Below, in pieces: positions 7,060 through 22,364 of a stretch of DNA of 59,600 bases. Numbering within the stretch: the stretch's first letter is position 1; the number at the start of each line of letters is the position of its first letter. The DNA lies in NCBI RefSeq assembly GCF_016652235.1, contig NZ_JAEPKU010000010.1:1-59600 (forward strand), in the 5' to 3' direction. The notes under the pieces are model-generated. The model was given only the letters and a program-made list of their open reading frames with translations. It was not told the origin of the DNA and ran no database searches. This stretch comes from Dysgonomonas sp. Marseille-P4677 (GTDB lineage Bacteria > Bacteroidota > Bacteroidia > Bacteroidales > Dysgonomonadaceae). A program made the translations under genes and the position numbers.

Positions 7060-9864
7060 TTATTTCAGATTCTTAATCCTTATATTTTTAAACTTAACAG
7101 GCGAACCATGTCCTAGAAAACCTATATGCCCTTTTTTATTGAAAAGTCCCGGATGCATCTTTTTATCCGGTATTCCATTTTTAGTGGCTTCTCTTATATT
7201 TCCATCCAGAATAACAGTTCCGTTTAATGTTATCTTTATATTATCACCATTAGCAATGACCTCCTGATAGTTCCATTCTCCGACAGGTTTCAGATATCCT
7301 CTCTTGGCCGGGATAATACCATAGACCGAACCATGATATTGATATGGAGCAAGGTTACTATACACAGCTGCTTCATTATCCAGAATTTGTAATTCCATAC
7401 CAACATATGCGGCATCACCTTCCATCGGGGTACGGATACCCAAACCATTATTTGCAGCAGTAGTCAACTGAAATTCGAAACGGAAAATAAAATTCGAGAA
7501 TTCTTCTTTAGTATATAAGTTTCCTCCATGAGCACTACTAGGATGAAGTGAAATACAGCCATTCTCTAATACATAATCAGTTACATTTCCTGTCCATTGA
7601 TCCATATTTGTTCCGTCAAAGAGAATATAGTACCCCTCTTTTTTTTCTTCATCCGAAAGCAAAAACGGTTTAGGAGGAATTAAACTACTTAGGTGATCAC
7701 GAATAGCCTGTTTCTGATACTCAGCATCCGGATTATCCAGAACTAGAATGACTTTATTTAATAAATCGTCTACATTTTTTCCAGTAAAGTTTTTATTGGC
7801 CAACGCTATAGTCATTACAGCCTGAGCTGCTTCCTGTTGAACCGATTTATCATCAAGATATTGCCCTGCAGCCAGCATAGCCGGATATGCATTGGTTTTA
7901 CCTAATTGTACCAATATGGATTTCTTTTGCTCTGTAGTTTTAGCTAACAACAAAGCATTATTAAGGTATCTAAATCTATCTTCTGCTTTAATCTGTGGAT
8001 CAGATACAAGCCGTATATATCCAGATAATGAGTGGTCAAAATAAGCAGACAAACTAGTATCTTTACAGATAGCCAATAAATCTTTAGCTACCTCTATGCC
8101 TTTCCAATCGAGCAACGAACGAAAAGCAATTTCTTGCGCTTCACCTGTTGAGCTTTTAAAACCATCAGATATTATTTTTAAAGACTGTTTATCTCCTGTT
8201 GCTGCTAAGACAGGAAAATACAGATATTTTTTATCTAAAGGAGTTTTATCCATTTGGTTAATTACTAATGCTACTTGCTTATCAGCAGAATAATCTGACA
8301 ATGAATTTATTATTGCTTGTTGTATTGGCTGAACAAAAGGAGTATCCGCTTTTTCCAGAAGCTTATATAAATCAGGTAAGTTTTTGGAAACACTGATATC
8401 TTTGAGAGCAGCATAAGCTGCAGTTTTTACTCCTTGAGAATCGGAAGCTAATAAGTCAAATACTATATTATCGAATTTTGAAGCTTTTCGTGCGGCCAAT
8501 AATTCTAAGGCTGCTATTTTTCCTTCATCCGTTACATTTTTCATTATTGGAACAATCGCAGCAGATATATCTCCATCTGTAGAACACAATCCATTTTTCG
8601 CCATCACTATAACGCCTTTATTATCTGATGCTAACAAACCAGACAAAGCTTCTATAGATTTTTCTCCACCGATTCGAACTAAGACATCGACAGTAGCTTT
8701 TTTTAGAACCATATCGTTATCACCCAGTTGCTCAATAAACATATCTGTGGCTAAAGAACCTATCAATGTTTTCTTCTTTACATCTGTACACTCTTGCAAA
8801 AACCAGTTAGTAATATCTGTTTTTACCGCCGGTTGAGCTTTTTTCATAACCTTCAATAGCTCTTTATACATTTTTTCGGAAGTAAAGTCCGATACAAAAT
8901 TGAGAGCTGCAAACCGATAATTTCTGTCATCCTCTTTCAAGGCTGCTTTCAATAACTTTATTGATTCTTGGGGTTTTGCAGTCATAAGTATTTGTAAAGC
9001 CGCTTCACGAGTCTGATTTTGCCCTGCTTTCTCAGCTTTTTTCATCAAATTGTTCGCTGCTTTTGCAATATCTTTTACCTCTCCCTTATCAAGTAATCTT
9101 TTTAGTAGAGATATGTAAGCTTCTGTTGCACCTGATTTATCCATCGCATAATTTACTTTCTCTGTAGCAATAGACAAAGCTTTTAAGGAGGTCTTAGTGC
9201 CAGAACGGCTTAAAGCATACAGGGTTGCTTTCTGAATATCATCATTTTCATTGTTCAATATAGCAAGCAATTTATCTTCTGCCGCAGCTATTTGCATTTC
9301 TCCTATAGCTTCAATAATGTCTTTCTTTGTATTAGAATTAGTAGCTACATCAAGTGCATTAAGCAGTGCTCTGGCTGCATCATCTGATTTAATAGAGGCC
9401 AATGCACGACAGGCAGGACCACTTAAGTATTCATCGTTAAAAAATGACGATAGCTTTTCAACAGCTTCGTCTTTTCCCAATATTTGCAACTGACCAATAA
9501 TAAAGGCTTTGATTTCTCTATTATCAGTCATATCCAATGCCTTTATATAAGCATTCGAAATAATTGAACGATTGATATCCTGCCCTTGAGCTGAAACATA
9601 GTAAGAGAGTCCGTTTAGAGCATATTCAACCTGAGCATTACTCCCTTTCCCGGGAACATTCATCATTTTTACCAGACGAAAAACACCTTCTTCTTTTGTC
9701 GAAACTAGATCATTTAACAAGATATTGTATTGCTTTTCATTTTGTGCCGGCATTTGGGCCAGAACATCAGCAATAATAGTCTCAACTGTTCTTCCTGTAG
9801 GTGTCTGAGCTATAGATACGAGACAACATATATATGCTAAACATAATAAATATATTTTTTTCAT
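7060..9864 (-). CDS. HEAT-repeat protein with C-terminal DUF1080 (3-keto-glycoside hydrolase-type) domain
   Basis: Exported protein of 934 residues. After an N-terminal signal peptide (cleavage near VSIAQ), residues about 30-730 are alpha-helical HEAT-like repeats. The last 200 residues (from about 737, YYILFDGTNMDQWTG) form a DUF1080 beta-sandwich with NNGLGIRTPMEGDAAYVGME and VGEWNYQEVIANGD. Some DUF1080 proteins cleave 3-keto-glycosides produced by Gfo/Idh dehydrogenases, and a Gfo/Idh gene lies 24 bp upstream here. The expected role is therefore periplasmic cleavage of an oxidised glycoside. The long HEAT array may be a scaffold for partners or substrate. Enzymatic activity of this protein is inferred from context. 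Confidence 0.88.
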   Translation of the reverse strand: MKKIYLLCLAYICCLVSIAQTPTGRTVETIIADVLAQMPAQNEKQYNILLNDLVSTKEEGVFRLVKMMNVPGKGSNAQVEYALNGLSYYVSAQGQDINRSIISNAYIKALDMTDNREIKAFIIGQLQILGKDEAVEKLSSFFNDEYLSGPACRALASIKSDDAARALLNALDVATNSNTKKDIIEAIGEMQIAAAEDKLLAILNNENDDIQKATLYALSRSGTKTSLKALSIATEKVNYAMDKSGATEAYISLLKRLLDKGEVKDIAKAANNLMKKAEKAGQNQTREAALQILMTAKPQESIKLLKAALKEDDRNYRFAALNFVSDFTSEKMYKELLKVMKKAQPAVKTDITNWFLQECTDVKKKTLIGSLATDMFIEQLGDNDMVLKKATVDVLVRIGGEKSIEALSGLLASDNKGVIVMAKNGLCSTDGDISAAIVPIMKNVTDEGKIAALELLAARKASKFDNIVFDLLASDSQGVKTAAYAALKDISVSKNLPDLYKLLEKADTPFVQPIQQAIINSLSDYSADKQVALVINQMDKTPLDKKYLYFPVLAATGDKQSLKIISDGFKSSTGEAQEIAFRSLLDWKGIEVAKDLLAICKDTSLSAYFDHSLSGYIRLVSDPQIKAEDRFRYLNNALLLAKTTEQKKSILVQLGKTNAYPAMLAAGQYLDDKSVQQEAAQAVMTIALANKNFTGKNVDDLLNKVILVLDNPDAEYQKQAIRDHLSSLIPPKPFLLSDEEKKEGYYILFDGTNMDQWTGNVTDYVLENGCISLHPSSAHGGNLYTKEEFSNFIFRFEFQLTTAANNGLGIRTPMEGDAAYVGMELQILDNEAAVYSNLAPYQYHGSVYGIIPAKRGYLKPVGEWNYQEVIANGDNIKITLNGTVILDGNIREATKNGIPDKKMHPGLFNKKGHIGFLGHGSPVKFKNIRIKNLK

Positions 9865-9888
9865 AAGATTTTTTTTAGAATTAAATCA

Positions 9889-11145
9889 TTATATATTCCA
9901 TGGTGAGCGCATTGGCTGATTGACAAGGCGGTTTGCCGCTTCATCATTGATAAACTCCAATTTTACGGGATCAAAGTGCAATGTGCGGTTTAGTCTTAAT
10001 GCTACAAGCCCCATATTAACAATAGTAGCAGATCTGAAACCATTTTGCTCGTTAAGGGCAAATGCTTTCCTAGTTTTTACACTTTCAATAAAATCTGTTA
10101 CCTGAGATTCCGGTTCTGGATAATCAGCCAACTTTTTCTCCCAATTAGGAATATCGCATACAAAGTTCTTATATACATTTCCATTAGGACCTGATATATA
10201 TGGAGTATCAGGGTCTCCATAATCGCCTCCCCACAATACAATCTGACAACCATCATCATAAGTATATGTTATGGAACGCCAAACCCCAATAGCATCGGGA
10301 TGTTGTTGCGGTGCATCCACTTCCACTTTTACCGGACTTGTATTATCTTTACCTAAGAGATATTGAACAGGATCTATATAATGTTGCCCCATGTCTCCTA
10401 ATCCTCCGCCATCATAATCCCAATAACCCCGGAATGTACTATGAACACGGTGAGAATTATATGGTTTGTACGGCGCGGGTCCGAGCCACATGTCATAATC
10501 TAATTCTTCGGGAATGGGTTGCGGTTCGAGATATTCTTTGCCTACCCAAAAGAATTTCCAGTCGAATCCGGTATGTTTGCTTATCGTCACCTTCAAAGGC
10601 CAGCCCAACATACCACTCTGAACTAGTTTCTTTAGAGGTTGAACTGGTGTTCCCAATCCATAAAAATTATCTTTGAAACGAAACCAAGTATTCAACCTAA
10701 ACATATTACCATATTGTTTTACGGCTTCCATTACCCTCTTACCTTCCCCTATAGTCCGGGTCATAGGCTTCTCACACCAAATATCTTTACCTGCTTTAGC
10801 TGCTTCTACCGACATGATTCCATGCCAATGAGGTGGAGTTGCTATATGGACAATATCCACATTCTTATCTAAAATAAGATCTCTGAAATCATGATATGCC
10901 GCTATTTTTTCAGTAACAAGGTTTTTACCTAATTCCAAGTGTTTCTTATCTACATCGCAAACTGCAACCAAACGTGTACCAGCATATTTAAGGTGGCCAC
11001 GTCCCATGTTTCCCGTACCAATTATTCCCTTGGTGAGCTGATCACTGGGGGCTATATAGCCATTTCCCAGTACTTGCCGGGGAATAATTGTAAGAGCAGC
11101 GAATGCCCCTATGGTCTTAATAAAATTTCGTCGATTAGTTTTCAT
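9889..11145 (-). CDS. Gfo/Idh/MocA-family oxidoreductase with Tat signal
   Basis: NAD(P)-dependent sugar or glycoside dehydrogenase, 418 residues. The N-terminus has a twin-arginine motif (RRNFIK) followed by a hydrophobic stretch, so it should be exported folded with its cofactor. The Rossmann motif GIIGTGNMGRGH is at about 39-50 and the family motif CEKPMTRT near 130. The C-terminal alpha/beta domain includes GGGLGDMGQHYIDPVQYLLG with the usual His. Together with the adjacent DUF1080 gene it fits the known two-step scheme of C3 oxidation followed by cleavage of the 3-keto-glycoside. It is the first gene of the 2414-11145 cluster, with its own upstream region of 250 bp. Confidence 0.93.
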   Translation of the reverse strand: MKTNRRNFIKTIGAFAALTIIPRQVLGNGYIAPSDQLTKGIIGTGNMGRGHLKYAGTRLVAVCDVDKKHLELGKNLVTEKIAAYHDFRDLILDKNVDIVHIATPPHWHGIMSVEAAKAGKDIWCEKPMTRTIGEGKRVMEAVKQYGNMFRLNTWFRFKDNFYGLGTPVQPLKKLVQSGMLGWPLKVTISKHTGFDWKFFWVGKEYLEPQPIPEELDYDMWLGPAPYKPYNSHRVHSTFRGYWDYDGGGLGDMGQHYIDPVQYLLGKDNTSPVKVEVDAPQQHPDAIGVWRSITYTYDDGCQIVLWGGDYGDPDTPYISGPNGNVYKNFVCDIPNWEKKLADYPEPESQVTDFIESVKTRKAFALNEQNGFRSATIVNMGLVALRLNRTLHFDPVKLEFINDEAANRLVNQPMRSPWNI

Positions 11146-11395: not shown

Positions 11396-12931
11396 TTAGC
11401 GTTGAACTATAATTTTCAGTTTACATTTTCTTCCATAGAGTTTTGTTACTCCTGAATAATCGAACCCAGCTAGATTAGGAGCAGAGTAGTGAGCACTCAT
11501 TCCATTACCTGAAGCTGGACGATCTATCTTACAGCCATCCTTCAAAGCATCAGAATCGTCTGGAGCTTCCAGAACTTTTATTATACCCCATTTAAATTCA
11601 CCATCTATATTGCGACGGTTAAAAGCAACATATGTACCTTGTTTAATATTGTGGCTACAAGCATCGGCCTGATCTGTAGATGCTCCCTGGCGCCACATAA
11701 CAAGGTTGCTTGTTGTACCGGTAGATGCTGCTAAATAATCTTTGAGTTCATCCAATGCCTGGAAAGTTTCCCAATTCCCTGTGCTATTCTCAAAGAAACT
11801 ATCTAGGTCCATACTTGTAGCTATCGCATCAGTAATTATCTTAAAATTAGAGAGATTTAAAGTCATTGTAGTTAACCATTGAGCATCTTGCTGTCTACCT
11901 ACAGGCCCTCCATTCAGGCGGCTTGCACCAACAAATGCAAATCCACGCTGTGCAGTATAAGCAAAATTTGTCTGGTTACGCCAGATATTTGCAAACATAA
12001 AATCAACATTGCCTTTACTTGCTGAAATAGCATCATTTAAGGACAGTATATTCTTAACAGTTCCATTTACGTTTACTCCATCAATTGAGAATATATATGG
12101 TTGATTCGGATCTCCCGGATTTTCCCATTCGGGCGCCATTTCTATATTATCAAATATATAAGCTCTACCCGGAGGTATTCCTGTAATTCCCTTAATACTA
12201 ACAAAATGTACCTTTTCAACATTTCTGATATCGACAGCTTTAATCATGATCGCATCAGCCCTTTCATCATCTACTGTAATAGAGAATTGGAATGTTTTTT
12301 CTTTTTCATTTGACACTGCAATATCCTTTACATCCTGAAGCTCAAGGTATGGGGATTTTTGAACTAAACAATAACTCAGCGATTTAAGTCCCTCAATAGA
12401 AATTACTTCACCTTTCAACGAAACAGAACCATTTAGTTCTACAGATTCTATCTCCGTTGGCTCTGTAGTTATTTTGGGTGGTATTCCTGTTATTTTTCCA
12501 ATTGAGATATTCTGTATTACTTGTTTTACATAAATATCATTGGCTACAATCGCAATGCCACCTGCATCTTCAGCATATATCGGAACTTCGATAGAAAAAT
12601 TATAAGTATTAGGAAATTCTGCTAATTTTACATGTACTCTTTTGCTGGCATCAATTTCTTCATATCCATCTGCTGTCTTACGCAGAAGTGTACCATATAT
12701 ATTTCGCAATCCATTAGGTGCTGCAACAGTACCTTCAATAATCTTGTTGGTGTTTATATCAACTTCGTTATAAGATGTCTCAGTAGTTAGATTCAAGGTT
12801 GGAGGAGGATAGGCATTGTCATCTAAATAATTAGTTGCCTTATCTTCATCACTACAAGCCATAAAAAGAGTAGCCATAATAAACGAAAAGCACAATAATC
12901 TATACCTGATATATAATAGATTCTTTTTCAT
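11396..12931 (-). CDS. Surface lipoprotein with Ig-like repeats, probable glycan-binding protein
   Basis: 511-residue lipoprotein: hydrophobic N-terminus and lipid Cys in FMACSDEDK. The acidic residues after the Cys are typical of Bacteroidetes lipoproteins exported to the cell surface. Two roughly 100-residue beta-rich repeats follow, each ending in the same linker (ITGIPP, near residues 147 and 249). A distinct C-terminal domain (about 265-511) contains the only extended Trp/Asn-rich segments. Position as last gene of a SusCD operon and this architecture fit a SusE/F-like surface glycan-binding protein. No catalytic motif is visible. The ligand is unknown. Confidence 0.75.
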   Translation of the reverse strand: MKKNLLYIRYRLLCFSFIMATLFMACSDEDKATNYLDDNAYPPPTLNLTTETSYNEVDINTNKIIEGTVAAPNGLRNIYGTLLRKTADGYEEIDASKRVHVKLAEFPNTYNFSIEVPIYAEDAGGIAIVANDIYVKQVIQNISIGKITGIPPKITTEPTEIESVELNGSVSLKGEVISIEGLKSLSYCLVQKSPYLELQDVKDIAVSNEKEKTFQFSITVDDERADAIMIKAVDIRNVEKVHFVSIKGITGIPPGRAYIFDNIEMAPEWENPGDPNQPYIFSIDGVNVNGTVKNILSLNDAISASKGNVDFMFANIWRNQTNFAYTAQRGFAFVGASRLNGGPVGRQQDAQWLTTMTLNLSNFKIITDAIATSMDLDSFFENSTGNWETFQALDELKDYLAASTGTTSNLVMWRQGASTDQADACSHNIKQGTYVAFNRRNIDGEFKWGIIKVLEAPDDSDALKDGCKIDRPASGNGMSAHYSAPNLAGFDYSGVTKLYGRKCKLKIIVQR

Positions 12932-12950: not shown

Positions 12951-13742
12951 TTAATTAGTCTCTAAAACTAATGTCGTAATAATTGGTAAATGATCTGATA
13001 ATTGAGTAACCGGTGTGTATGAATTCACTATTTTCCAGACATTTGAAGATGGATAGCAGAATATATAATCTATTTTCGATTTGGGATTATTGGCTGGAAT
13101 TGTATGATCAGGACTGCTTACCTGCATCCAGTTCTTCATTCCATTAGCAATTTCATCCGAATCGGGTCTGGCATTAAAATCACCACATAGTATCATTGGC
13201 GTTTTAATCTTCATTAATTGCTGATTAATGAAATCTACTTGCGTTTTCCTCACATCTGAAGTTGTGTAATCAAGATGTGTACAAGCAAAAGTAATTGATT
13301 CCTCATCAGACAATTCCACTTCACTGATTAAAAGGGCACGCCGTTCTTTTGCACCATCTGGCATTGGCAAAAATAGGCGTTGCGACTGACTAAAAGGATA
13401 CTTGCTAAGTATGCCAATTCCATAATACCCACCGGCATAATCTATAGTTCTGGCATACAGAGATAGCATTCCGGTACGAAAAGCCAGTTCGGAAATAAAG
13501 TTCTTACCATTCTGATGTGGAGCTCTCGTTCTAGATGTGTTCACATCCACCTCCTGCAATGCAACGATGTCGGGATTTTCTTTTTTTATAAAATCGGCAA
13601 ATTCTTCTAATGAAGCCAATTCTCCAAAACGAAGATTATAGCACAAAACCTTAAGTTGTACCTTATCTTGTGCTAATAAATTTATTGCTAAAAAAGAAAA
13701 GATTATCAGTATATATATACGAAAGTTAAATGTCTTCTTCAT
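12951..13742 (-). CDS. Secreted endonuclease/exonuclease/phosphatase (EEP) family protein
   Basis: Metal-dependent phosphoesterase fold, 263 residues with a cleavable signal peptide (ending near NLLAQ), so probably periplasmic. All active-site motifs are present: CYNLRFG (Asn), LQEVDVNT (Glu), ACTHLDYT (His), CGDFNARPDSDE (Asp and Asn), SKIDYIF and LSDHLPI (final Asp-His). Related domains act on nucleic acids, inositol phosphates, sphingomyelin or sugar phosphates. In a PUL a sugar phosphate or phosphodiester is more likely than DNA (inference). It lies 6 bp after the degenerate EEP lipoprotein gene and 19 bp before the surface lipoprotein gene, in one operon. Confidence 0.9.
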   Translation of the reverse strand: MKKTFNFRIYILIIFSFLAINLLAQDKVQLKVLCYNLRFGELASLEEFADFIKKENPDIVALQEVDVNTSRTRAPHQNGKNFISELAFRTGMLSLYARTIDYAGGYYGIGILSKYPFSQSQRLFLPMPDGAKERRALLISEVELSDEESITFACTHLDYTTSDVRKTQVDFINQQLMKIKTPMILCGDFNARPDSDEIANGMKNWMQVSSPDHTIPANNPKSKIDYIFCYPSSNVWKIVNSYTPVTQLSDHLPIITTLVLETN

Positions 13743-13748
13743 CTGTAT

Positions 13749-14534
13749 TTATTTAAGTAATTCAATCTGAATAAGAAAGCTTTTAATATCTCCTGATACA
13801 ACAGATTCGGTCACATCTCTCAATTTCCATTTTGACGATCCAAGAACATATATGCAATATTCACTCGATTTGCCTGTATTGTCAATAATATCTAACATAT
13901 AAGAATCTTTTGTTAACGTAGTACTTAGAGATGATTCTAATTTAGATAGAACGCTTCTTTTTACAGTACCAACAACTAATGTCGAAACAAAAAGATTGTT
14001 CTTTAGAAAACTGACAGCAGGCGTGATCTGATCATCCGAATTGATAGATGCTGATAAGAATCTCATCTTCAAAGAAGAAGTAAATGCTATTTCTGCTTGG
14101 AACATCCAACAATCAGTAGTTAAAATTGTTTGTTCCATCTCATCTAACGCCTGACCAAAGAGGATGGTATTTCCCAAATACTCGTTATCAGCTCTCCCAT
14201 AGGGAACAAAATAGGGCATATAAAGCGACTGATGTGCAACTTTTACGGCAGGATTTATCATCTCTGTTTCCGAAAAAGAAACATTCGTATTGTTTAGTAA
14301 AATTGCATTTTGCTCTTTTGCCTTTATTGCATTAACTACAGGAGTGTAGTTTGAATTAGGGAAAAGACTTTCCGCTGATAAATCAGATATTATCAAAACT
14401 TTAGCGGTCCTACTTTTATCCCATATATCGTCCTTTCCTCCGCCTCCATTGTTCCCATCATCACCATTATCGGATGAACAAGCAAACAATAGTGATGATA
14501 ACAGTATTCCTATCAGTTTTATTAAATCTTTCAT
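13749..14534 (-). CDS. Lipoprotein resembling a catalytically dead EEP domain
   Basis: 261-residue lipoprotein (lipobox LLFACSSDNG, then a Gly/Asp-rich tether), probably on the surface. By eye, the rest tracks the two flanking EEP proteins along its whole length: KVLIISDLSAES for the first strand, YLGNTILFGQAL for YGVAILSKYPI, KMRFLSASINSDD for VRVAATHLDHS, and CIYVLGSSKWKLRDV for DYIFCYPSSNVWKI. At every catalytic position the residue is changed: Glu of QEVD to Asn/Thr, His of THLD to Ile/Asn, GDFN to GTVK, and SDH to SGD. I infer a pseudoenzyme that may have become a binding protein. The homology was judged without a search. Confidence 0.7.
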   Translation of the reverse strand: MKDLIKLIGILLSSLLFACSSDNGDDGNNGGGGKDDIWDKSRTAKVLIISDLSAESLFPNSNYTPVVNAIKAKEQNAILLNNTNVSFSETEMINPAVKVAHQSLYMPYFVPYGRADNEYLGNTILFGQALDEMEQTILTTDCWMFQAEIAFTSSLKMRFLSASINSDDQITPAVSFLKNNLFVSTLVVGTVKRSVLSKLESSLSTTLTKDSYMLDIIDNTGKSSEYCIYVLGSSKWKLRDVTESVVSGDIKSFLIQIELLK

Positions 14535-14540
14535 ATCCGG

Positions 14541-15323
14541 TTATTTATTATATTCAACATCCGTCACTAAAGCACAATGGTCTGAAATACCTGTTTCTTT
14601 GAGTATCTCATAGCTTTTCACAGTCCATTTGCCTGTAGGTTTAGCAAAAATATAGTCTATTTTACTTGTAGGTATCGCCGGAAAAGTCGGAAAATTATTA
14701 CAAATTCGTTGCCAGGTTGCCATTCCCTGAACAATTGCATTCTCTCCGGGCTTGGCGTTAAAATCTCCAGCTAATATGATAGGAAGTGAATTTCCTATAT
14801 ATGAATCTAACTGACGTACCATGTCTAAACGTACATTATCGGTTGAATGATCCAAATGAGTAGCCGCGACCCGCACTTTTTCATTGTTCCCGGGTAGTAT
14901 TACATCAATATAAAGAACCGTTCGCTTTTCTTTCAGATCTGCAGAATTACTTGTCAATGGATTATTAGAGATTTTCTGTATCGGATATTTTGACAGAATA
15001 GCAACTCCATATTTTCCTTGTTGGTAAGTAATAGCCGAGCCAAAAGCCGAAAACATTCCTAACTCTGCGGCCAGCTCTGTTGTAAAATCTTTTCCTCCAT
15101 TTCTTACTGTAAAATAATCTACTTCTTGCAAAATAATAAAGTCGGGATTATGTTTTTTTATCAAAGTAGCAAACGGTTTAGCAGAGTAATTAACCAACTC
15201 TCCAGACATACGGGTATTGAAATTCATCAACCTGAAAGATGTCTGTGCCATTAACGAGCTATGGGGCAGCAATACTAATAGAACACAAATAAATAAATAT
15301 CTAATATTGTTAATCATAATCAT
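14541..15323 (-). CDS. Secreted endonuclease/exonuclease/phosphatase (EEP) family protein
   Basis: Second intact EEP phosphoesterase of the operon, 260 residues with a signal peptide ending near SLMAQ. Motifs in order: MNFNTRMSGE (Asn), LQEVDYFT (Glu), AATHLDHS (His), LAGDFNAKPGE, SKIDYIF and GISDHCALV. It resembles the 12951-13742 protein closely in layout, so the three EEP-fold genes probably arose by tandem duplication, with the middle one degenerating. It starts 15 bp after the SusD stop and ends 6 bp before the degenerate copy, indicating one transcript. Substrate unknown; a phosphodiester or phosphate substituent of the imported glycan is the working inference. Confidence 0.9.
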   Translation of the reverse strand: MIMINNIRYLFICVLLVLLPHSSLMAQTSFRLMNFNTRMSGELVNYSAKPFATLIKKHNPDFIILQEVDYFTVRNGGKDFTTELAAELGMFSAFGSAITYQQGKYGVAILSKYPIQKISNNPLTSNSADLKEKRTVLYIDVILPGNNEKVRVAATHLDHSTDNVRLDMVRQLDSYIGNSLPIILAGDFNAKPGENAIVQGMATWQRICNNFPTFPAIPTSKIDYIFAKPTGKWTVKSYEILKETGISDHCALVTDVEYNK

Positions 15324-15338
15324 TTATTTTGATAATAG

Positions 15339-17126
15339 TCACTCCCACCCCGGATTGTTTGGTTTCAAGTTTGGATTTAACTCCATTTGCCTGTATGGAA
15401 GAGAAAAGAGATAATTTTTAGGGCTTGAGAAAACGCGGGAATCGTCAAATATGAGAAAACCTTTATCATCAAACTTTGTAGTTGTTGAAAATACCGCCGG
15501 ATCGTAAGCATAATCTTTGCGAATTCCCTTCATAACTCCTTTTTCCTGACGTTCTGGTGTTTCCGATTTATCTACTCCTAATTCATAGCCTTGTTTCCAT
15601 CTCATAAGATCGTACCAACGATGCCCTTCCATAAATAATTCTACACGACGTTCTCGTTGAAGCTCAGTCTTCAGATCCAATCCGTTGCTTTGCAATTCTG
15701 TAAGAATCATTCTTTTCATACCTACTCTGTCTCTCAGTTTATTGATCGTTTTATCAATAACATCCTGATCTAATGAACCTAAGTTAAACATCGCTTCGGC
15801 ATAATTGAGGAGAATCTCTCCATAACGGATAAAGATTATATCATTGTCATCTTGGTTGTAAAGAGGAACTTTCGATGGCTCACAATATTTACGAATGTAA
15901 TAGCCCGTATAAGTTACTGCACCTTTTCCATCATTATTGAATTTAGGTGACCGGAAGATATTTGTTTTAGATGCGTCTTCGGCAGCATTTGCGATGCCTC
16001 TGCCATCTACCTTACCGTACCATTTGTCGTATCCCGGATATACTATAGATTGTTTTAGTCGAGGATCCCTGTTTACAAATACACTATCGTATGCACTATA
16101 AGCAGGAGTGTATGTACCATTTCCTTTGTACAATTTGGATTTCTCTATCGGCAATCCATCAGTACATAGATAACTATCTATCATAGATTTAGTAGGATTA
16201 AACCTTATAATTTGATCGGGAACCTGCAACTCACGGCTCAAATTGTGTCTGGTTGGAGAAGGTAGATCAAAATTGTATACGTAAGATAATATAGCCTCTT
16301 TATTACTTGCTTTACGAGAGGCCCGCCCTTCGAATGTAAACAAGTCGAAATAGTCCTGATTCGGGCGTCCTGTAGTATATAATCCATGATAAGCATATTC
16401 ACCACCAGGCATAACAGCCTCACATGCGGCTTTTGCTACACTCCATCGATCATTTTGTAATGCTACACGAGATTCCATCGCTTTCGCAGCAGCACCAGAG
16501 ATTCGGCCAAAACTAGTAGTTCCCGGCTCAATATATCGTGGTAGTGTTTTAGCAGCAGCATCTAGTTCTTCTAAAATAAAATCTACAATTTCGGCACGAG
16601 ATGTACGTGCAGCAAACAATCTATCATCTCCCGGAGGCAGAGGTTCTGTAATGAATGGCACATCGCCCCAGAAACATGTAAGATAGTAATAGATAAATGC
16701 TCTTAGGAATCGTACTTCTCCGGCATATTGTTCCAGCTTTTTAGAGTCGACAATACCTTCAGCCCGCTTATAATTCGCTAAAAAGTAATTACAGCGTCTC
16801 ATTTGTTTATATGCATCTTTGTAGCGACTATCTAACGTAGAGAAGTCCGAACCGTATAATCCGCTTCCGACTTGTCTCCATCCGCTAAGAGTATACCATA
16901 AAGCATTATCGCTCAATCCTTCCGAGATATTAATCATCATATCTTTCCCTATCAAAGCCCAATAACAGCCATTTGCCGCATTTTTTACTTGCAACTCTGA
17001 TTCCCAAAAATTAGCATCAGTAAGTTCGTCTAGCGGGGCCTTTTCCAGAAAGTCATCATTACAGGAAAAAAGTATAGATGAAAATACGAGTATAAAGATG
17101 TATGTAATATTCTTTTTCATAGTCAA
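15339..17126 (-). CDS. SusD/RagB-family outer-membrane lipoprotein, PUL 1
   Basis: Surface glycan-binding lid of a SusCD importer, 595 residues. The lipobox SSILFSCNDDFLEKAPLDE has acidic residues after the Cys, as in surface lipoproteins. The helical TPR-like SusD core is recognisable from RFLRAFIYYYLTCFWGDVPF and the C-terminal signature RRVELFMEGHRWYDLMRWK. Start may be the first ATG (17126) or MKKN two codons later. It begins 7 bp after the SusC stop, the canonical SusC-SusD order. Its ligand cannot be read from sequence. Confidence 0.95.
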   Translation of the reverse strand: MTMKKNITYIFILVFSSILFSCNDDFLEKAPLDELTDANFWESELQVKNAANGCYWALIGKDMMINISEGLSDNALWYTLSGWRQVGSGLYGSDFSTLDSRYKDAYKQMRRCNYFLANYKRAEGIVDSKKLEQYAGEVRFLRAFIYYYLTCFWGDVPFITEPLPPGDDRLFAARTSRAEIVDFILEELDAAAKTLPRYIEPGTTSFGRISGAAAKAMESRVALQNDRWSVAKAACEAVMPGGEYAYHGLYTTGRPNQDYFDLFTFEGRASRKASNKEAILSYVYNFDLPSPTRHNLSRELQVPDQIIRFNPTKSMIDSYLCTDGLPIEKSKLYKGNGTYTPAYSAYDSVFVNRDPRLKQSIVYPGYDKWYGKVDGRGIANAAEDASKTNIFRSPKFNNDGKGAVTYTGYYIRKYCEPSKVPLYNQDDNDIIFIRYGEILLNYAEAMFNLGSLDQDVIDKTINKLRDRVGMKRMILTELQSNGLDLKTELQRERRVELFMEGHRWYDLMRWKQGYELGVDKSETPERQEKGVMKGIRKDYAYDPAVFSTTTKFDDKGFLIFDDSRVFSSPKNYLFSLPYRQMELNPNLKPNNPGWE

Positions 17127-17133
17127 ATTAGTT

Positions 17134-20100
17134 TTAATGAAGACTTATATTTACACCAAATACGAAAGTTTTTATCTGTGGATAATTACCACCTCCCTGA
17201 ATAGGTGTTTCGGGATCACAAGTTGAAAAATAATCGGAGATTGTAAACAGGTTATCTGCCGAGACATAAAAACGACATTTATCTATCCTCATGTGTCTTG
17301 TCCACTTAGCCGGTAATGTATAACCTAGCTGTATATTTTTCATCCTCAGGTATGATGCGTCTTCGATCCAAAATGTAGAGAAACGTTGGTTATAACTTTG
17401 ATTGTACGTGAAACGAGGATATTTTGCATTCGGATTTGGGTTAGATGCCTGATAGCGATCTACGTGGAAGGTCTGAGGATATGTTGATTGATCGGTAAAT
17501 GCATGACGCGCAGGTCCGTAAATGTATCCGTCCACTTTCCCTACTCCTTGAAGTAAGAAACTGAAATCTATCCCCTTATATTCTATATCTCCTTTTAGGC
17601 TAAATGTATAGCGAGGGAGGGAGCTTCCAACTACTTTCCTGTCGTTATCCAAATCAATAGCACCATCATCGTTAAAATCTTTATACTTTATATCTCCAGG
17701 CTGCACTAAACCAGCATCACCAGACATAATAGGAAACTTAGGATTCATGTATTTACCCTTTGTCGCATCATAATATTCAAAATCGGTAGGCATAGCTATA
17801 CCATCAGCCACTAAACCATAAAAAGCGTCATATGTATCCCCTTGCCTGGTTATAGTATATGTTCCGATTTTTTGCGATTCCCATTTTGTTATTTTATTTT
17901 TCACATCGGCCAAAGTAAATCTTACTCCATAGTTGAGATCGGAACCTACTTTATCTCTCCAGTCTAGCTGTATCTCCCATCCTTTATTTTCCATTTCGCC
18001 GCCATTTTCATCCATGTCTTTAAGGAATCCACCTACAGCAGGCTGCTCTCGAGTATACATTATCCTTTTTGTTTTTCTAAGATAGTAATCGCCTGAAAAA
18101 GAGAGTTTATTGTTCAATATATTAATATCCAATCCAATATTGGTAGTATGCACCATTTCCCACAACAATAGAGGGTTTCCTATATAAGTTTCGGCATATC
18201 CATCATTTGCAACTGCTCCTAAAGCAGGTACTGACACATAACCTATACGAGAAATATAAGGGTAAAGATCCGAGCCTGTAGAATATTGATTCCCAAGTAT
18301 ACCCCATGATCCACGCAATTTTAATTGATCTAAGAAAGTCTTGAAGTTTTCCATGAAATCTTCTTCAGAAATGCGCCATCCGGCAGAGAAAGAAGGGAAC
18401 CATTCTCCTCGGTAACTTTTATCGAAGCGGGACGTTAAATCGTAGCGAAGATTAGCTTCCAATAGATATTTACTTTTATAATCATAATTTAAACGCCCGA
18501 AACCTGAACGCATAGACCAATGGCTAGCAGCGGATGAATTTGCCTGAGTATCAGCTGATCCAAACTCTAGTACCGGATCTTTTTCTGTTATCAGATTTTT
18601 TCTCGAAGCATTAAACTGATCACTTCTTTGCCATTCTTGCTGATAACCGAACATTGTGTGGAAACTATGCTCTTTAATTTTCAGATTATAGTCTGTCTGA
18701 ATAAATAAGTTTTGGCTAAGAGTCCTGTAATCCCTGTTTTCTATAGAGTTTGGTGTGTTAGTTGTGTACCATATTTCGTCCGTGTCCGGATAATAGAAAT
18801 TGATAGTTTTACTAAGAAGATTTCTGAAACTATTAGATTGGCGAGTTATATAATTCGCTGAAGCCGTCCAATCTTTCATTATAGTCGCTTGCAACGTAAA
18901 ATTACCGGTAAACTCGTTCGATCTAAAATTTTGACCGCCACCGTCGGTTAGATAAGCAACCTGGTTACTTTGTCCCCCTCCGTATCCCCATTTTCCGTCA
19001 GTAAAGCGAACCGGTACTAATGGACGGGTTCTCATTGCATTGTATAAAGATCCGGCAGTTAGGTCAAAAGAAGCATTAGGTGCTGTGAAATTTCTTTCGA
19101 TATATCCCATATTAGCTGTAATATTGAATATATCCGCTACTTTTGTACTTAGTTTCAAACGGACATTATGTCTTTGTGAGCTGGTAGACTCTCCTACTGT
19201 TAAACCTTTCTGATCAAGATATCCATATGATATAAGATATCCCATATTTTTTGCTTTACCGTCTACACTTGCATTAAAGTTATATTGCGGTGCAGACGAT
19301 TTAAATACAGCATCTATCCAATCAGTGTTAGCATAATAATTAGGATCTGAACCGTCAATAACCTTTTGTATATCCGCAGCCGTATAGTTCTGATTTCCGC
19401 CAACATTTGCCTGGGCCTCATTTTCCCAAGCCATAAAAGTAGGGCTATCAGCCATTTTTGGCATTTTAGTTGGTTTTTGTACTCCTACATAAGAATGGAT
19501 ACTGATTTGAGGAGCGCGTTCGCTACCTTTCACACTTTTAGTAGTTATCAATATTACCCCATTTGCTGCACGATTTCCATATATTGCCGCTGAGGCAGCA
19601 TCTTTCAATACAGAAATGCTTTCTATATCATTTGGATTGATAATATTCATATCACCTTCCGCCCCATCAATTAACACTAATGGACTATTATTAGATACAG
19701 ACCCAATACCCCTTATTTGTATTGAAGCATTAGACTGTCCAGGTAAACCTCCATTTGCACTTGCCGTAACCGTCATTCCGGGTACTAACCCCTGCAAACC
19801 AGTAGAAACATTGGTTATCGGACGCTTATTCAGTTCATCCGGAGTAATTACAGCTACAGAACCCGTCAGGTTGATTTTCTTTTGTGTCCCATATCCGACT
19901 ACAACAATTTCGTCCAAAAGTTTATCCAACGGTTGTAATACGATATTAAGTTCGGACTCATTCTTTATTTTTATAGCCTCTGTTTGATAACTCACATAAG
20001 AAACTTCCAAAACTTCTCCGATAGATGCTTCAATAGAGAATTTCCCATCGATATCCGTTAAAGTGGCTATGCTTGTTCCTACTATTTTTACCGTAGCTCC

Positions 20101-20493
20101 AATCAAAGGTTCTCCCTCATTATCAGAGACAGTACCCTTCATCATTACTTTTTTGTTAGAAGCAGGAACCTGTTGTGACTGAGGCTTTAAAATTATTTGT
20201 TTGTTCAATATTTCGAAAGAAATACTTTTTCCTTCAAATGCTTTTTGCAAAATAGCAGGTACTGTTTCATTGCTAAAATTTACAGTAACGTGCTGGTTCA
20301 TATTAATCGATGAATTAAAAACAAAAGTATAACTTGTTTTCTTTTCTATCTGAGCCGTAAGCTCTTTAAGTGTCATCTCTCCGGTGATACTAATTTTTGA
20401 TAAGGTTTGATTTGTATTTGCTATTGAAGGTAACGAATAAAGAGAAAACACGAAAAAAGACAAAATTGCGATAAATCTGGTCGTTTTTATCAT
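17134..20493 (-). CDS. SusC/RagA TonB-dependent transporter with STN domain, PUL 1
   Basis: Outer-membrane oligosaccharide importer, 1119 residues. In order: signal peptide, STN domain (about 28-105), carboxypeptidase-regulatory-like domain (about 117-195, GTVSDNEGEPLIGATVKI), TonB/plug region with VVGYGTQKKINLTGSVAV, then the beta-barrel ending VFGVNISLH. An STN domain in a SusC typically contacts the periplasmic part of a FecR anti-sigma factor, and an ECF-sigma/FecR pair lies immediately upstream, so this transporter probably senses its own substrate. A 12-bp hairpin separates it from fecR. Confidence 0.96.
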   Translation of the reverse strand: MIKTTRFIAILSFFVFSLYSLPSIANTNQTLSKISITGEMTLKELTAQIEKKTSYTFVFNSSINMNQHVTVNFSNETVPAILQKAFEGKSISFEILNKQIILKPQSQQVPASNKKVMMKGTVSDNEGEPLIGATVKIVGTSIATLTDIDGKFSIEASIGEVLEVSYVSYQTEAIKIKNESELNIVLQPLDKLLDEIVVVGYGTQKKINLTGSVAVITPDELNKRPITNVSTGLQGLVPGMTVTASANGGLPGQSNASIQIRGIGSVSNNSPLVLIDGAEGDMNIINPNDIESISVLKDAASAAIYGNRAANGVILITTKSVKGSERAPQISIHSYVGVQKPTKMPKMADSPTFMAWENEAQANVGGNQNYTAADIQKVIDGSDPNYYANTDWIDAVFKSSAPQYNFNASVDGKAKNMGYLISYGYLDQKGLTVGESTSSQRHNVRLKLSTKVADIFNITANMGYIERNFTAPNASFDLTAGSLYNAMRTRPLVPVRFTDGKWGYGGGQSNQVAYLTDGGGQNFRSNEFTGNFTLQATIMKDWTASANYITRQSNSFRNLLSKTINFYYPDTDEIWYTTNTPNSIENRDYRTLSQNLFIQTDYNLKIKEHSFHTMFGYQQEWQRSDQFNASRKNLITEKDPVLEFGSADTQANSSAASHWSMRSGFGRLNYDYKSKYLLEANLRYDLTSRFDKSYRGEWFPSFSAGWRISEEDFMENFKTFLDQLKLRGSWGILGNQYSTGSDLYPYISRIGYVSVPALGAVANDGYAETYIGNPLLLWEMVHTTNIGLDINILNNKLSFSGDYYLRKTKRIMYTREQPAVGGFLKDMDENGGEMENKGWEIQLDWRDKVGSDLNYGVRFTLADVKNKITKWESQKIGTYTITRQGDTYDAFYGLVADGIAMPTDFEYYDATKGKYMNPKFPIMSGDAGLVQPGDIKYKDFNDDGAIDLDNDRKVVGSSLPRYTFSLKGDIEYKGIDFSFLLQGVGKVDGYIYGPARHAFTDQSTYPQTFHVDRYQASNPNPNAKYPRFTYNQSYNQRFSTFWIEDASYLRMKNIQLGYTLPAKWTRHMRIDKCRFYVSADNLFTISDYFSTCDPETPIQGGGNYPQIKTFVFGVNISLH

Positions 20494-20660: not shown

Positions 20661-21704
20661 CTATTTATATTTGATAGTCACCTCCTCTCCCTTTATTTGG
20701 TAATTTATTGGTGTTATTCTATTGATCAGTTCAAGAATCTCTGTCAATGATTCTGTTTTTATAGTTAACCAATAGTTTTCATGCGACATCTGTCCCTCTA
20801 TAGTAATCTTAACACCGTACCAACGCTCCATTTTGGATATAACTACCGGCATTGGATCGTTTATAATCTTGAGTTGTCCATGTCTCCATATACCATCTAT
20901 TTCCGGATCGCAGATTTTCAGTTTAAAACTATTATCATCTTTGTTTATAACGATCTTTTCATTAGGCTTTAAAACACCGAATACTTTATCATTTATCTTA
21001 CCTACCGAAACACGTCCATTTATAACAGAAACTGAAATCTCTTTATCACCTCGATAAGCTTCAACATCGAACGAAGTACCTAATACACTTACCTCTATAT
21101 CATTTATCGATATCTTAAAGTTTAGGTTTTCATTCCTTGTCACATCGAAGAAAGCTTCTCCTTCCATTTCTATATTCCGGTTATCAACTCCATAATCGGT
21201 ATTATAAGTTATTTTTGTGCCTGAATTTAACCATACTAATGTTCCATCAGGTAAGAAGAGTTTTGTCTTCTGCCCTGGAGGTGATTCCACTGTTACTTCC
21301 TTTTGTGCGGGTGTTATCGATTTTATGTGAAATAGAGAAAAAGAAAAGCCTGTAATTAAAGCAATAGTTGCTGCAATAGCAGCCACTTTTAAAAGTGTTT
21401 TTCTACTATATGATTTATCTATAACCCTATCTGTTTGTGTATCTTCTTCGTATCTGTTATTAGATGATAATTCTATTCTTTCTCTAAAAAGATTGAATGC
21501 CCTATCCTTATCAAACTTTTGACTCTCCTTAATATATTCAATAGAATGATATATCTTTTCTATTTCTTCAAAATAGGAAACATGAAGCTCCGACTCCGAT
21601 AGCCAGAGTTGTAATTCATCATTATCTCTTGCCGAAATAGTTCCTTCAAGAAAATCGATTATAAGAGTGAGCTTATGTTCGTCTATATCGCGATATTTTT
21701 CCAT
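20661..21704 (-). CDS. FecR-family anti-sigma factor
   Basis: Inner-membrane anti-sigma factor of 347 residues. The cytoplasmic N-terminus (about 1-100) would hold the sigma factor; one membrane segment lies at about 105-125 (VAAIAATIALITGFSFSLF). The periplasmic FecR domain contains ESPPGQKTKLFLPDGTLVW and MEGEAFFDVTRN, and the C-terminal DUF4974/STN-like domain (about 278-347) begins at NDPMPVVISKMERWYG. It follows the sigma gene by 51 bp and precedes a SusC with an STN domain, the known trans-envelope signalling arrangement. It should release the sigma factor when the SusC binds substrate. Confidence 0.94.
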   Translation of the reverse strand: MEKYRDIDEHKLTLIIDFLEGTISARDNDELQLWLSESELHVSYFEEIEKIYHSIEYIKESQKFDKDRAFNLFRERIELSSNNRYEEDTQTDRVIDKSYSRKTLLKVAAIAATIALITGFSFSLFHIKSITPAQKEVTVESPPGQKTKLFLPDGTLVWLNSGTKITYNTDYGVDNRNIEMEGEAFFDVTRNENLNFKISINDIEVSVLGTSFDVEAYRGDKEISVSVINGRVSVGKINDKVFGVLKPNEKIVINKDDNSFKLKICDPEIDGIWRHGQLKIINDPMPVVISKMERWYGVKITIEGQMSHENYWLTIKTESLTEILELINRITPINYQIKGEEVTIKYK

Positions 21705-21755: not shown

Positions 21756-22364
21756 TCAAAACAGATCTTTTTTTAATAAAATAAACAAGAAAGGGATTAA
21801 CACATTTATATAATCTTTTAAATCGTTTCGCAAACGCGACAAAGCAACTTTCATATGATACTTTACAGTATCGACAGATACATCAAGCGTTCCTGCTATT
21901 TCTTGGTACTTCATATCAGAAAATCGACTTAACTCAAATATCCTTCGGGTTAAGTCGGGCATCTTGGCAAGACTATCTTTAATCTTCAAATCAAGCTCTC
22001 TTTCTATTAGTTTTGTCAATGGAGTGTTATCCAGATAAGTCAATACATCTGTGTTTTTCTCTATTGCCGATTGAAGTTCTGATTTTATGGATTCAAATTT
22101 TTTCTCCCTGACCAAATAGTTTATCGATGTATTTTTAACGGCACTCATCAGATAACCACGTAAAGTACTGTTTATCGTCAAACTTTCATGTTTAGACCAA
22201 ATAGAGAAAATGACATCTCCTACAATCATTTCCGCAATATAAATGTCCTTCACATACTGATAAGCATATGTGCATAAAGCCTGATAGTGATAATCATATA
22301 TATATTTATATGCATCTTCCTTTCCGGCCATTAAGTCTTTTATCAGATCTTGCTCCTTATCCAT
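21756..22364 (-). CDS. ECF-type RNA polymerase sigma factor
   Basis: Sigma-70 family, extracytoplasmic-function type, 202 residues. Region 2 covers roughly residues 10-90. Region 4 has a helix-turn-helix with YQEIAGTLDVSVDTVKYHMK followed by ALSRLRNDLKDYI. The hydrophobic C-terminal tail (VLIPFLFILL) is common in Bacteroidetes ECF factors. Together with the downstream FecR gene it forms the regulatory head of PUL 1 and should activate the susC operon. It is transcribed divergently from the DUF6377-type regulator of PUL 2. Confidence 0.94.
   Translation of the reverse strand: MDKEQDLIKDLMAGKEDAYKYIYDYHYQALCTYAYQYVKDIYIAEMIVGDVIFSIWSKHESLTINSTLRGYLMSAVKNTSINYLVREKKFESIKSELQSAIEKNTDVLTYLDNTPLTKLIERELDLKIKDSLAKMPDLTRRIFELSRFSDMKYQEIAGTLDVSVDTVKYHMKVALSRLRNDLKDYINVLIPFLFILLKKDLF

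Follow-up and report, generated by a model that had tools for sequence, protein, structure and literature searches.

The endonuclease/exonuclease/phosphatase (EEP) superfamily (PF03372), which includes Tdp2, APE1, neutral sphingomyelinase, CCR4/nocturnin and DNase I, has an alpha/beta sandwich fold, and its catalytic members share a set of residues (Asn, Glu, His, Asp-x-Asn, Asp and Asp-His) with metal-binding and catalytic roles. The surface glycan-binding proteins known from SusCD loci are built of Ig-like and carbohydrate-binding domains in series. Mannosyl-6-phosphatase, which we take to come from a yeast-mannan locus of Bacteroides, is named as an active phosphatase and is recognised as an EEP by a profile of active EEPs (PDB 4c1r, 3.7e-7). 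The one description that we found of SusCD uptake of phosphodiester-linked compounds concerns the Flavobacterium phosphate utilisation systems (PusCD loci), in which, from the accessible part of the paper, SusCD-type transporters are accompanied by phosphodiesterases, an alkaline phosphatase and uncharacterised lipoproteins (PMC8115612). Here we describe a protein that borders on all of these, encoded in 59,600 nucleotides of Dysgonomonas sp. Marseille-P4677 (contig NZ_JAEPKU010000010.1, positions 1 to 59,600; hereafter the window). It is the middle one of three tandem proteins in a SusCD operon, a predicted EEP-fold lipoprotein that we call the pseudoEEP.

The pseudoEEP resembles the EEP superfamily in predicted fold, in strand order over the whole domain and in a faint but significant profile similarity; it differs in being a lipoprotein and in that the 14 aligned members have lost the conserved residues for catalysis and metal binding. 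Like the SusE/SusF-like surface glycan-binding proteins it would be a non-catalytic lipoprotein encoded just downstream of SusCD, but its domain is of the EEP fold and its binding is putative. The likeness to the PusCD loci lies in the combination of SusCD-type transporters with phosphodiesterases and lipoproteins; the accessible part of that paper describes no pseudoEEP and lists one endo/exonuclease/phosphatase as an orphan. The 4c1r phosphatase is distant from the two EEPs that flank the pseudoEEP (rank 60 among the matches listed). A narrow search of open-licence literature, in which the slash-spelled family name was unsearchable, turned up neither a report of a dead EEP in a SusCD locus nor a precedent for dead enzymes as surface binders, which was also absent from the accessible parts of PMC12269599 and PMC11180146.

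The 261-residue pseudoEEP is encoded on the minus strand at 13749-14534, separated by 6 bases on each side from EEP1 (260 residues, 14541-15323) and EEP2 (263 residues, 12951-13742), both on the same strand. The first-pass annotation had placed these three open reading frames (ORFs) correctly and had rightly called the outer two intact EEPs: they match PF03372 (4.5e-21 and 1.1e-21, respectively) and their catalytic columns are intact. EEP1 has a signal peptide without an evident lipobox and also matches the PGAP2IP nuclease-like domain PF23226 above the cut-off (3.3e-9), while EEP2 alone gave zero matches to PDB sequences at 0.001. The middle protein matched no EEP model in Pfam at E <= 1 and nothing in NCBIfam or PHROGs. 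Its sole Pfam row, ribosomal protein L14, was below the cut-off (E 0.046), short, and reached 0.6 against PDB; we rejected this identity. Structure prediction and profile-profile comparison, two of the checks which that annotation had proposed, both came out in favour of an EEP. The predicted structure is an EEP alpha/beta sandwich whose strand order, read by eye, tracks the EEP order as had been claimed. Aligned by hhalign to 17 active EEPs, 14 domain-only middle-protein rows gave 92.3% (E 5.5e-7), co-linear over 116 N-terminal columns, with a score of 51.7 versus a mean of 13.1 and a maximum of 21.8 for 200 column-shuffled versions of the active-EEP alignment, and 15.4 for a reversed alignment. 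This strong signal arose only with the 14 and 17 rows; smaller early profiles were weak (23.8%, E 8.4e-4, to EEP1; 2.6%, E 0.017, to EEP2). We searched 120 ORFs, drawn from 20 of 26 loci, with a hidden Markov model (HMM) of the 14 rows, the six loci omitted being the known loci of the window and of genomes G451 and G464. It gave 20 matches at E <= 1, most of them weak (top match 2.1e-6), and all 20 were EEPs, of 25 present. In the 4.73 Mb host genome its single other match at E <= 10 was EEP2 (0.07), and against PDB sequences the domain profile had two weak matches (0.47 and 0.49) over 39 positions. The host-genome search, the shuffles and the 120-ORF test rule out chance resemblance, and the middle protein is predicted, from model and profile alike, to have an EEP fold.

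We then compared the residues at the nine catalytic positions with those of 28 active EEPs (the 17 above and 11 picked from the 25 EEPs present among the 120 ORFs). Eight of the nine positions are kept in 28/28 active EEPs and the ninth in 27/28, whereas each of the 14 middle proteins retains one at most. These 14 rows, used for all alignments and the tree, omit a near-twin of L004 as well as L091 and L092, whose former catalytic sites were read by eye only; in alignment A4 the ends of rows L022, L028 and L034 are off by a few residues. In a single alignment of all rows, the catalytic columns hold altered residues in the middle protein. The Asn position is Ser in 13/14 pseudoEEPs, the Glu position is Lys or Arg in 11/14 (the window protein and L002 have Asn there, L011 has Ser), and Thr replaces the Asp of GDxN in 12/14. 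Over the 14 pseudoEEPs, 24 of the 126 residues at these positions are basic and 6 acidic. Judged from the alignment, the changes are not random, and by the usual criteria the middle protein counts as a dead enzyme.

The N-terminus is that of a bacterial lipoprotein: the lipobox Cys19, judged from the alignment, is invariant in 14/14 rows, together with Leu52, Gly121 and Gly189. A short tether leads to the EEP-fold domain (about residues 41-261), and acidic residues follow the lipobox Cys, which we take to agree with a surface export signal, no more. The pseudoEEP is most likely an outer-membrane lipoprotein. Three earlier claims meet different ends here. The gain of a lipobox is borne out. That every catalytic motif had changed is nearly so, as the catalytic columns are altered but the Asp of SDH survives (as GDI) in the window protein and L002. 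The Gly/Asp tether is confined to the window protein and two near relatives, other members being richer in Pro, Glu and Asp.

Sixteen genomes (from Dysgonomonas, Proteiniphilum, a Parabacteroides and others of the order) carry the pseudoEEP family, at 17 loci in all, L020, L021 and L023-L027 being copies of other loci that were counted once. The order SusD, EEP, pseudoEEP on one strand is seen in 17/17 loci, with SusD two genes upstream of the pseudoEEP in each, and SusC was read wherever there was enough sequence. A second EEP is present in 7/17 loci and an Ig-type lipoprotein in 13/17; the latter was not recognised in L055, L056 and L058, and L091 ends shortly past the pseudoEEP gene, too early to show either. 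The conserved core is SusD-EEP1-pseudoEEP: an EEP pair, not a triplet, with an optional second EEP. The three tandem EEP-fold proteins of the first-pass annotation therefore describe the window and not the conserved unit. Strong pseudoEEP matches occur in 11/101 genomes of the family (16/101 with weak ones), in 2 genomes besides the host's own among 393 of the order (7/393 including weak ones and own), and in no genome besides its own among 395 of the class, where two weak partial matches were seen. The family of G464 gave a match in 3/149 genomes and that of G451 in 1/13. These samples overlap, and distant members could escape detection. Among the weak matches that were read (L030-L033 and L047-L050; L012-L019, L051 and L052 were left out), L047, L048 and L050 are catalytically intact EEP lipoproteins, L049 looks unrelated, and L030-L033 show no EEP operon. 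Viral contigs and plasmids gave no matches to the middle protein.

In a 42-row tree the 14 pseudoEEPs form one group (100/100), apart from both clades of flanking EEPs. The nine EEP1s that have a pseudoEEP partner group together (92/91, short of the 95 mark), and the EEP2s fall in a separate one, mixed with EEPs of loci without a recognised pseudoEEP. Because a long branch leads to the rest and the root is a midpoint root, the parent of the pseudoEEPs cannot be named. A single group apart from the flanking EEPs and spread over several genera is not the product of a recent local duplication; the tree indicates a family of long standing and not a peculiarity of one locus. Of the duplication and conversion once proposed, the EEP kinship and the catalytic loss stand, while a recent local event does not. 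Tandem EEPs without a pseudoEEP also exist, and in some of these loci (L069, L073, L076 and L081; after SusD, as read, in L073 and L081) a catalytically intact EEP lipoprotein comes first, which suggests a possible ancestral state. In L081 (634-3315), three tandem EEPs follow a SusD-like gene; the first, an EEP lipoprotein, keeps the residues at all nine positions, and the third has one of the nine changed.

Selection was estimated from the ratio of non-synonymous to synonymous substitution rates (dN/dS), relying on two pairs. Between the window and L002, the pseudoEEP had a dN/dS of 0.120, compared with 0.056 in EEP1 and 0.053 in EEP2; a portion of the 511-residue lipoprotein encoded downstream (a cut gene pair with one partial codon) had 0.058. 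Between L004 and L006 it was 0.197 for the pseudoEEP and 0.128 for EEP1. The L008-L009 value of 0.092 comes with a dS of 3.68, near saturation, and values of 0.000 reflect saturated dS and are meaningless. Ratios well below 1 indicate purifying selection on the pseudoEEP gene, with a constraint 1.5 to 2 times looser than that on its neighbours.

As its relatives keep the same arrangement, the pseudoEEP probably serves a nutrient-uptake system as a binding or helper component and is not a decaying gene. We propose, with about even confidence, that it is a non-catalytic EEP-fold lipoprotein that works with EEP1 in the SusCD operon and binds a phosphodiester-bearing ligand. It would sit on the outer membrane, probably facing outward, and its former active-site face, devoid of acidic metal ligands and in most members bearing Lys or Arg, would hold the ligand for import by SusCD while the exported EEP1 would cut it. 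This ligand would likely be a glycan or headgroup joined via a phosphodiester, perhaps an inositol phosphate as in glycosylphosphatidylinositol (GPI). Several observations weigh against this proposal. The basic positions vary, and the Glu position of the window protein itself is a non-basic Asn. Conservation at the nine columns exceeds that elsewhere in the domain only slightly (of 20000 random column sets, 721 were equally high), so that a retained pocket is suggested, no more. For the C-terminal catalytic columns the match depends on MAFFT and strand order, the Asp223 column is paired differently in two alignments, and the strong profile match is limited to the N-terminal part. The pseudoEEP also evolves 1.5 to 2 times faster than the neighbouring genes. 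Finally, the separate Ig-type lipoprotein of 13/17 loci could already do the binding; the 511-residue protein of the window, modelled as Ig-type and possibly a conventional binder, weakens the case in this way, whereas the three loci without a recognised Ig-type lipoprotein help it.

Pseudoenzymes often pair with their active paralogues as anchors or tuners. The pseudoEEP could accordingly be a dedicated subunit of EEP1, anchoring the exported enzyme to the outer membrane or tuning its activity, an alternative that we consider serious though less probable than binding. It would explain why EEP1 adjoins in 17/17 loci whereas the presence of EEP2 and of the Ig-type lipoprotein varies, why the nine partnered EEP1s group together, and why the pseudoEEP has a lipobox where the EEP1 of the window shows none. 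SusD is equally constant, however, and active EEP lipoproteins in similar loci (L069, L073, L076, L081), together with a possible lipobox (LLAC) in the signal of the L004 EEP1, indicate that an anchor is not always needed; we favour the binder. That the middle protein is instead a working enzyme that has kept the fold but rebuilt its active site, perhaps without need of a metal and with a different chemistry, appears improbable: new residues are fixed (Ser50 in 13/14, Thr190 and Ile250 in 12/14, Arg239 and Gln169 in 13/14), but no new set of His, Asp, Glu or Cys is invariant across the 14 rows. A functionless, decaying duplicate would account for the lost catalytic set and the faster evolution, but we rejected it as very improbable on the open frame in 17/17 loci and dN/dS well below 1, to which the old age and the kept lipobox Cys and locus position may be added.

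The three genes belong to an operon-like set on the minus strand. Upstream lie an ECF-type sigma factor (21756-22364) and a SusC-like TonB-dependent transporter (17134-20493), both recognised from their translations, a FecR-type anti-sigma factor (20661-21704; PF04773, 2.3e-17) and a SusD-like lipoprotein (15339-17126; PF07980, 4.2e-47). Downstream of EEP2, the 511-residue lipoprotein (11396-12931) is modelled with Ig-like N-terminal domains and a C-terminal domain and has no Pfam match. The model (pLDDT 79.2, pTM 0.60) gave Foldseek matches that were mostly Ig-type with low TM-scores; this candidate may resemble a conventional surface glycan-binding protein more than the pseudoEEP does. Further along, 7060-11145 encodes a Gfo/Idh/MocA oxidoreductase (top NCBIfam row glycoside 3-dehydrogenase, below the cut-off) and, next to it, a HEAT-repeat protein whose C-terminal part is a 3-keto-disaccharide hydrolase domain, and a phage-integrase family protein lies at 805-2124, close to the window end. 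Divergently, the plus strand at 24595-54225 (10 ORFs scanned) encodes three GH92 enzymes, a GH38, a GH2-like protein, a GDSL hydrolase, a SusD and a GH78-like rhamnosidase; by gene content this region is an alpha-mannan type utilisation locus adjoining the EEP operon.

Hints on the ligand come from few loci (GH89 seen in 3/17, PI-PLC in 1/17), most downstream genes of the other loci being unscanned. In L055 the pseudoEEP is followed by a phosphatidylinositol-specific phospholipase C (PI-PLC), an alkaline phosphatase and a glycerophosphodiester phosphodiesterase (GDPD). GH89 alpha-N-acetylglucosaminidases lie downstream in L020, L057 (two, with a sulfatase) and L092, where a relative of the glucosamine N-acetyltransferase NagX is also encoded (5.5e-94; 315 bits versus an equivalog cut-off of 480). 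In L092 (3536-10579), EEP1, pseudoEEP, EEP2, lipoprotein, GH89 and the NagX-like acetyltransferase form a single run; acetylation of a terminal glucosamine followed by GH89 cleavage would presumably recall lysosomal heparan breakdown. Enzymes for alpha-mannose, alpha-glucosamine and inositol phosphate nearby recall GPI-type glycans, and the neighbouring genes suggest that the ligand is perhaps an inositol-phosphate-linked glycan such as GPI; plant glycosylinositol phosphorylceramide (GIPC) or fungal phosphomannan may fit parts of the picture. A more ambitious version, which we regard as rather unlikely, is that a lineage of EEP phosphodiesterases was converted, in a single ancient event, into a subunit of the outer membrane that needs no metal and serves one clade of active EEPs exclusively, by binding or by pairing, the two proteins forming a SusCD-linked machine that would harvest inositol-phosphate-linked (GPI- or GIPC-like) glycans.

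A conserved, apparently dead EEP beside a live one would offer a clean test of how a catalytic pocket becomes a binding or pairing surface, and the pseudoEEP points to SusCD operons that may import phosphodiester-linked glycans or lipid headgroups.
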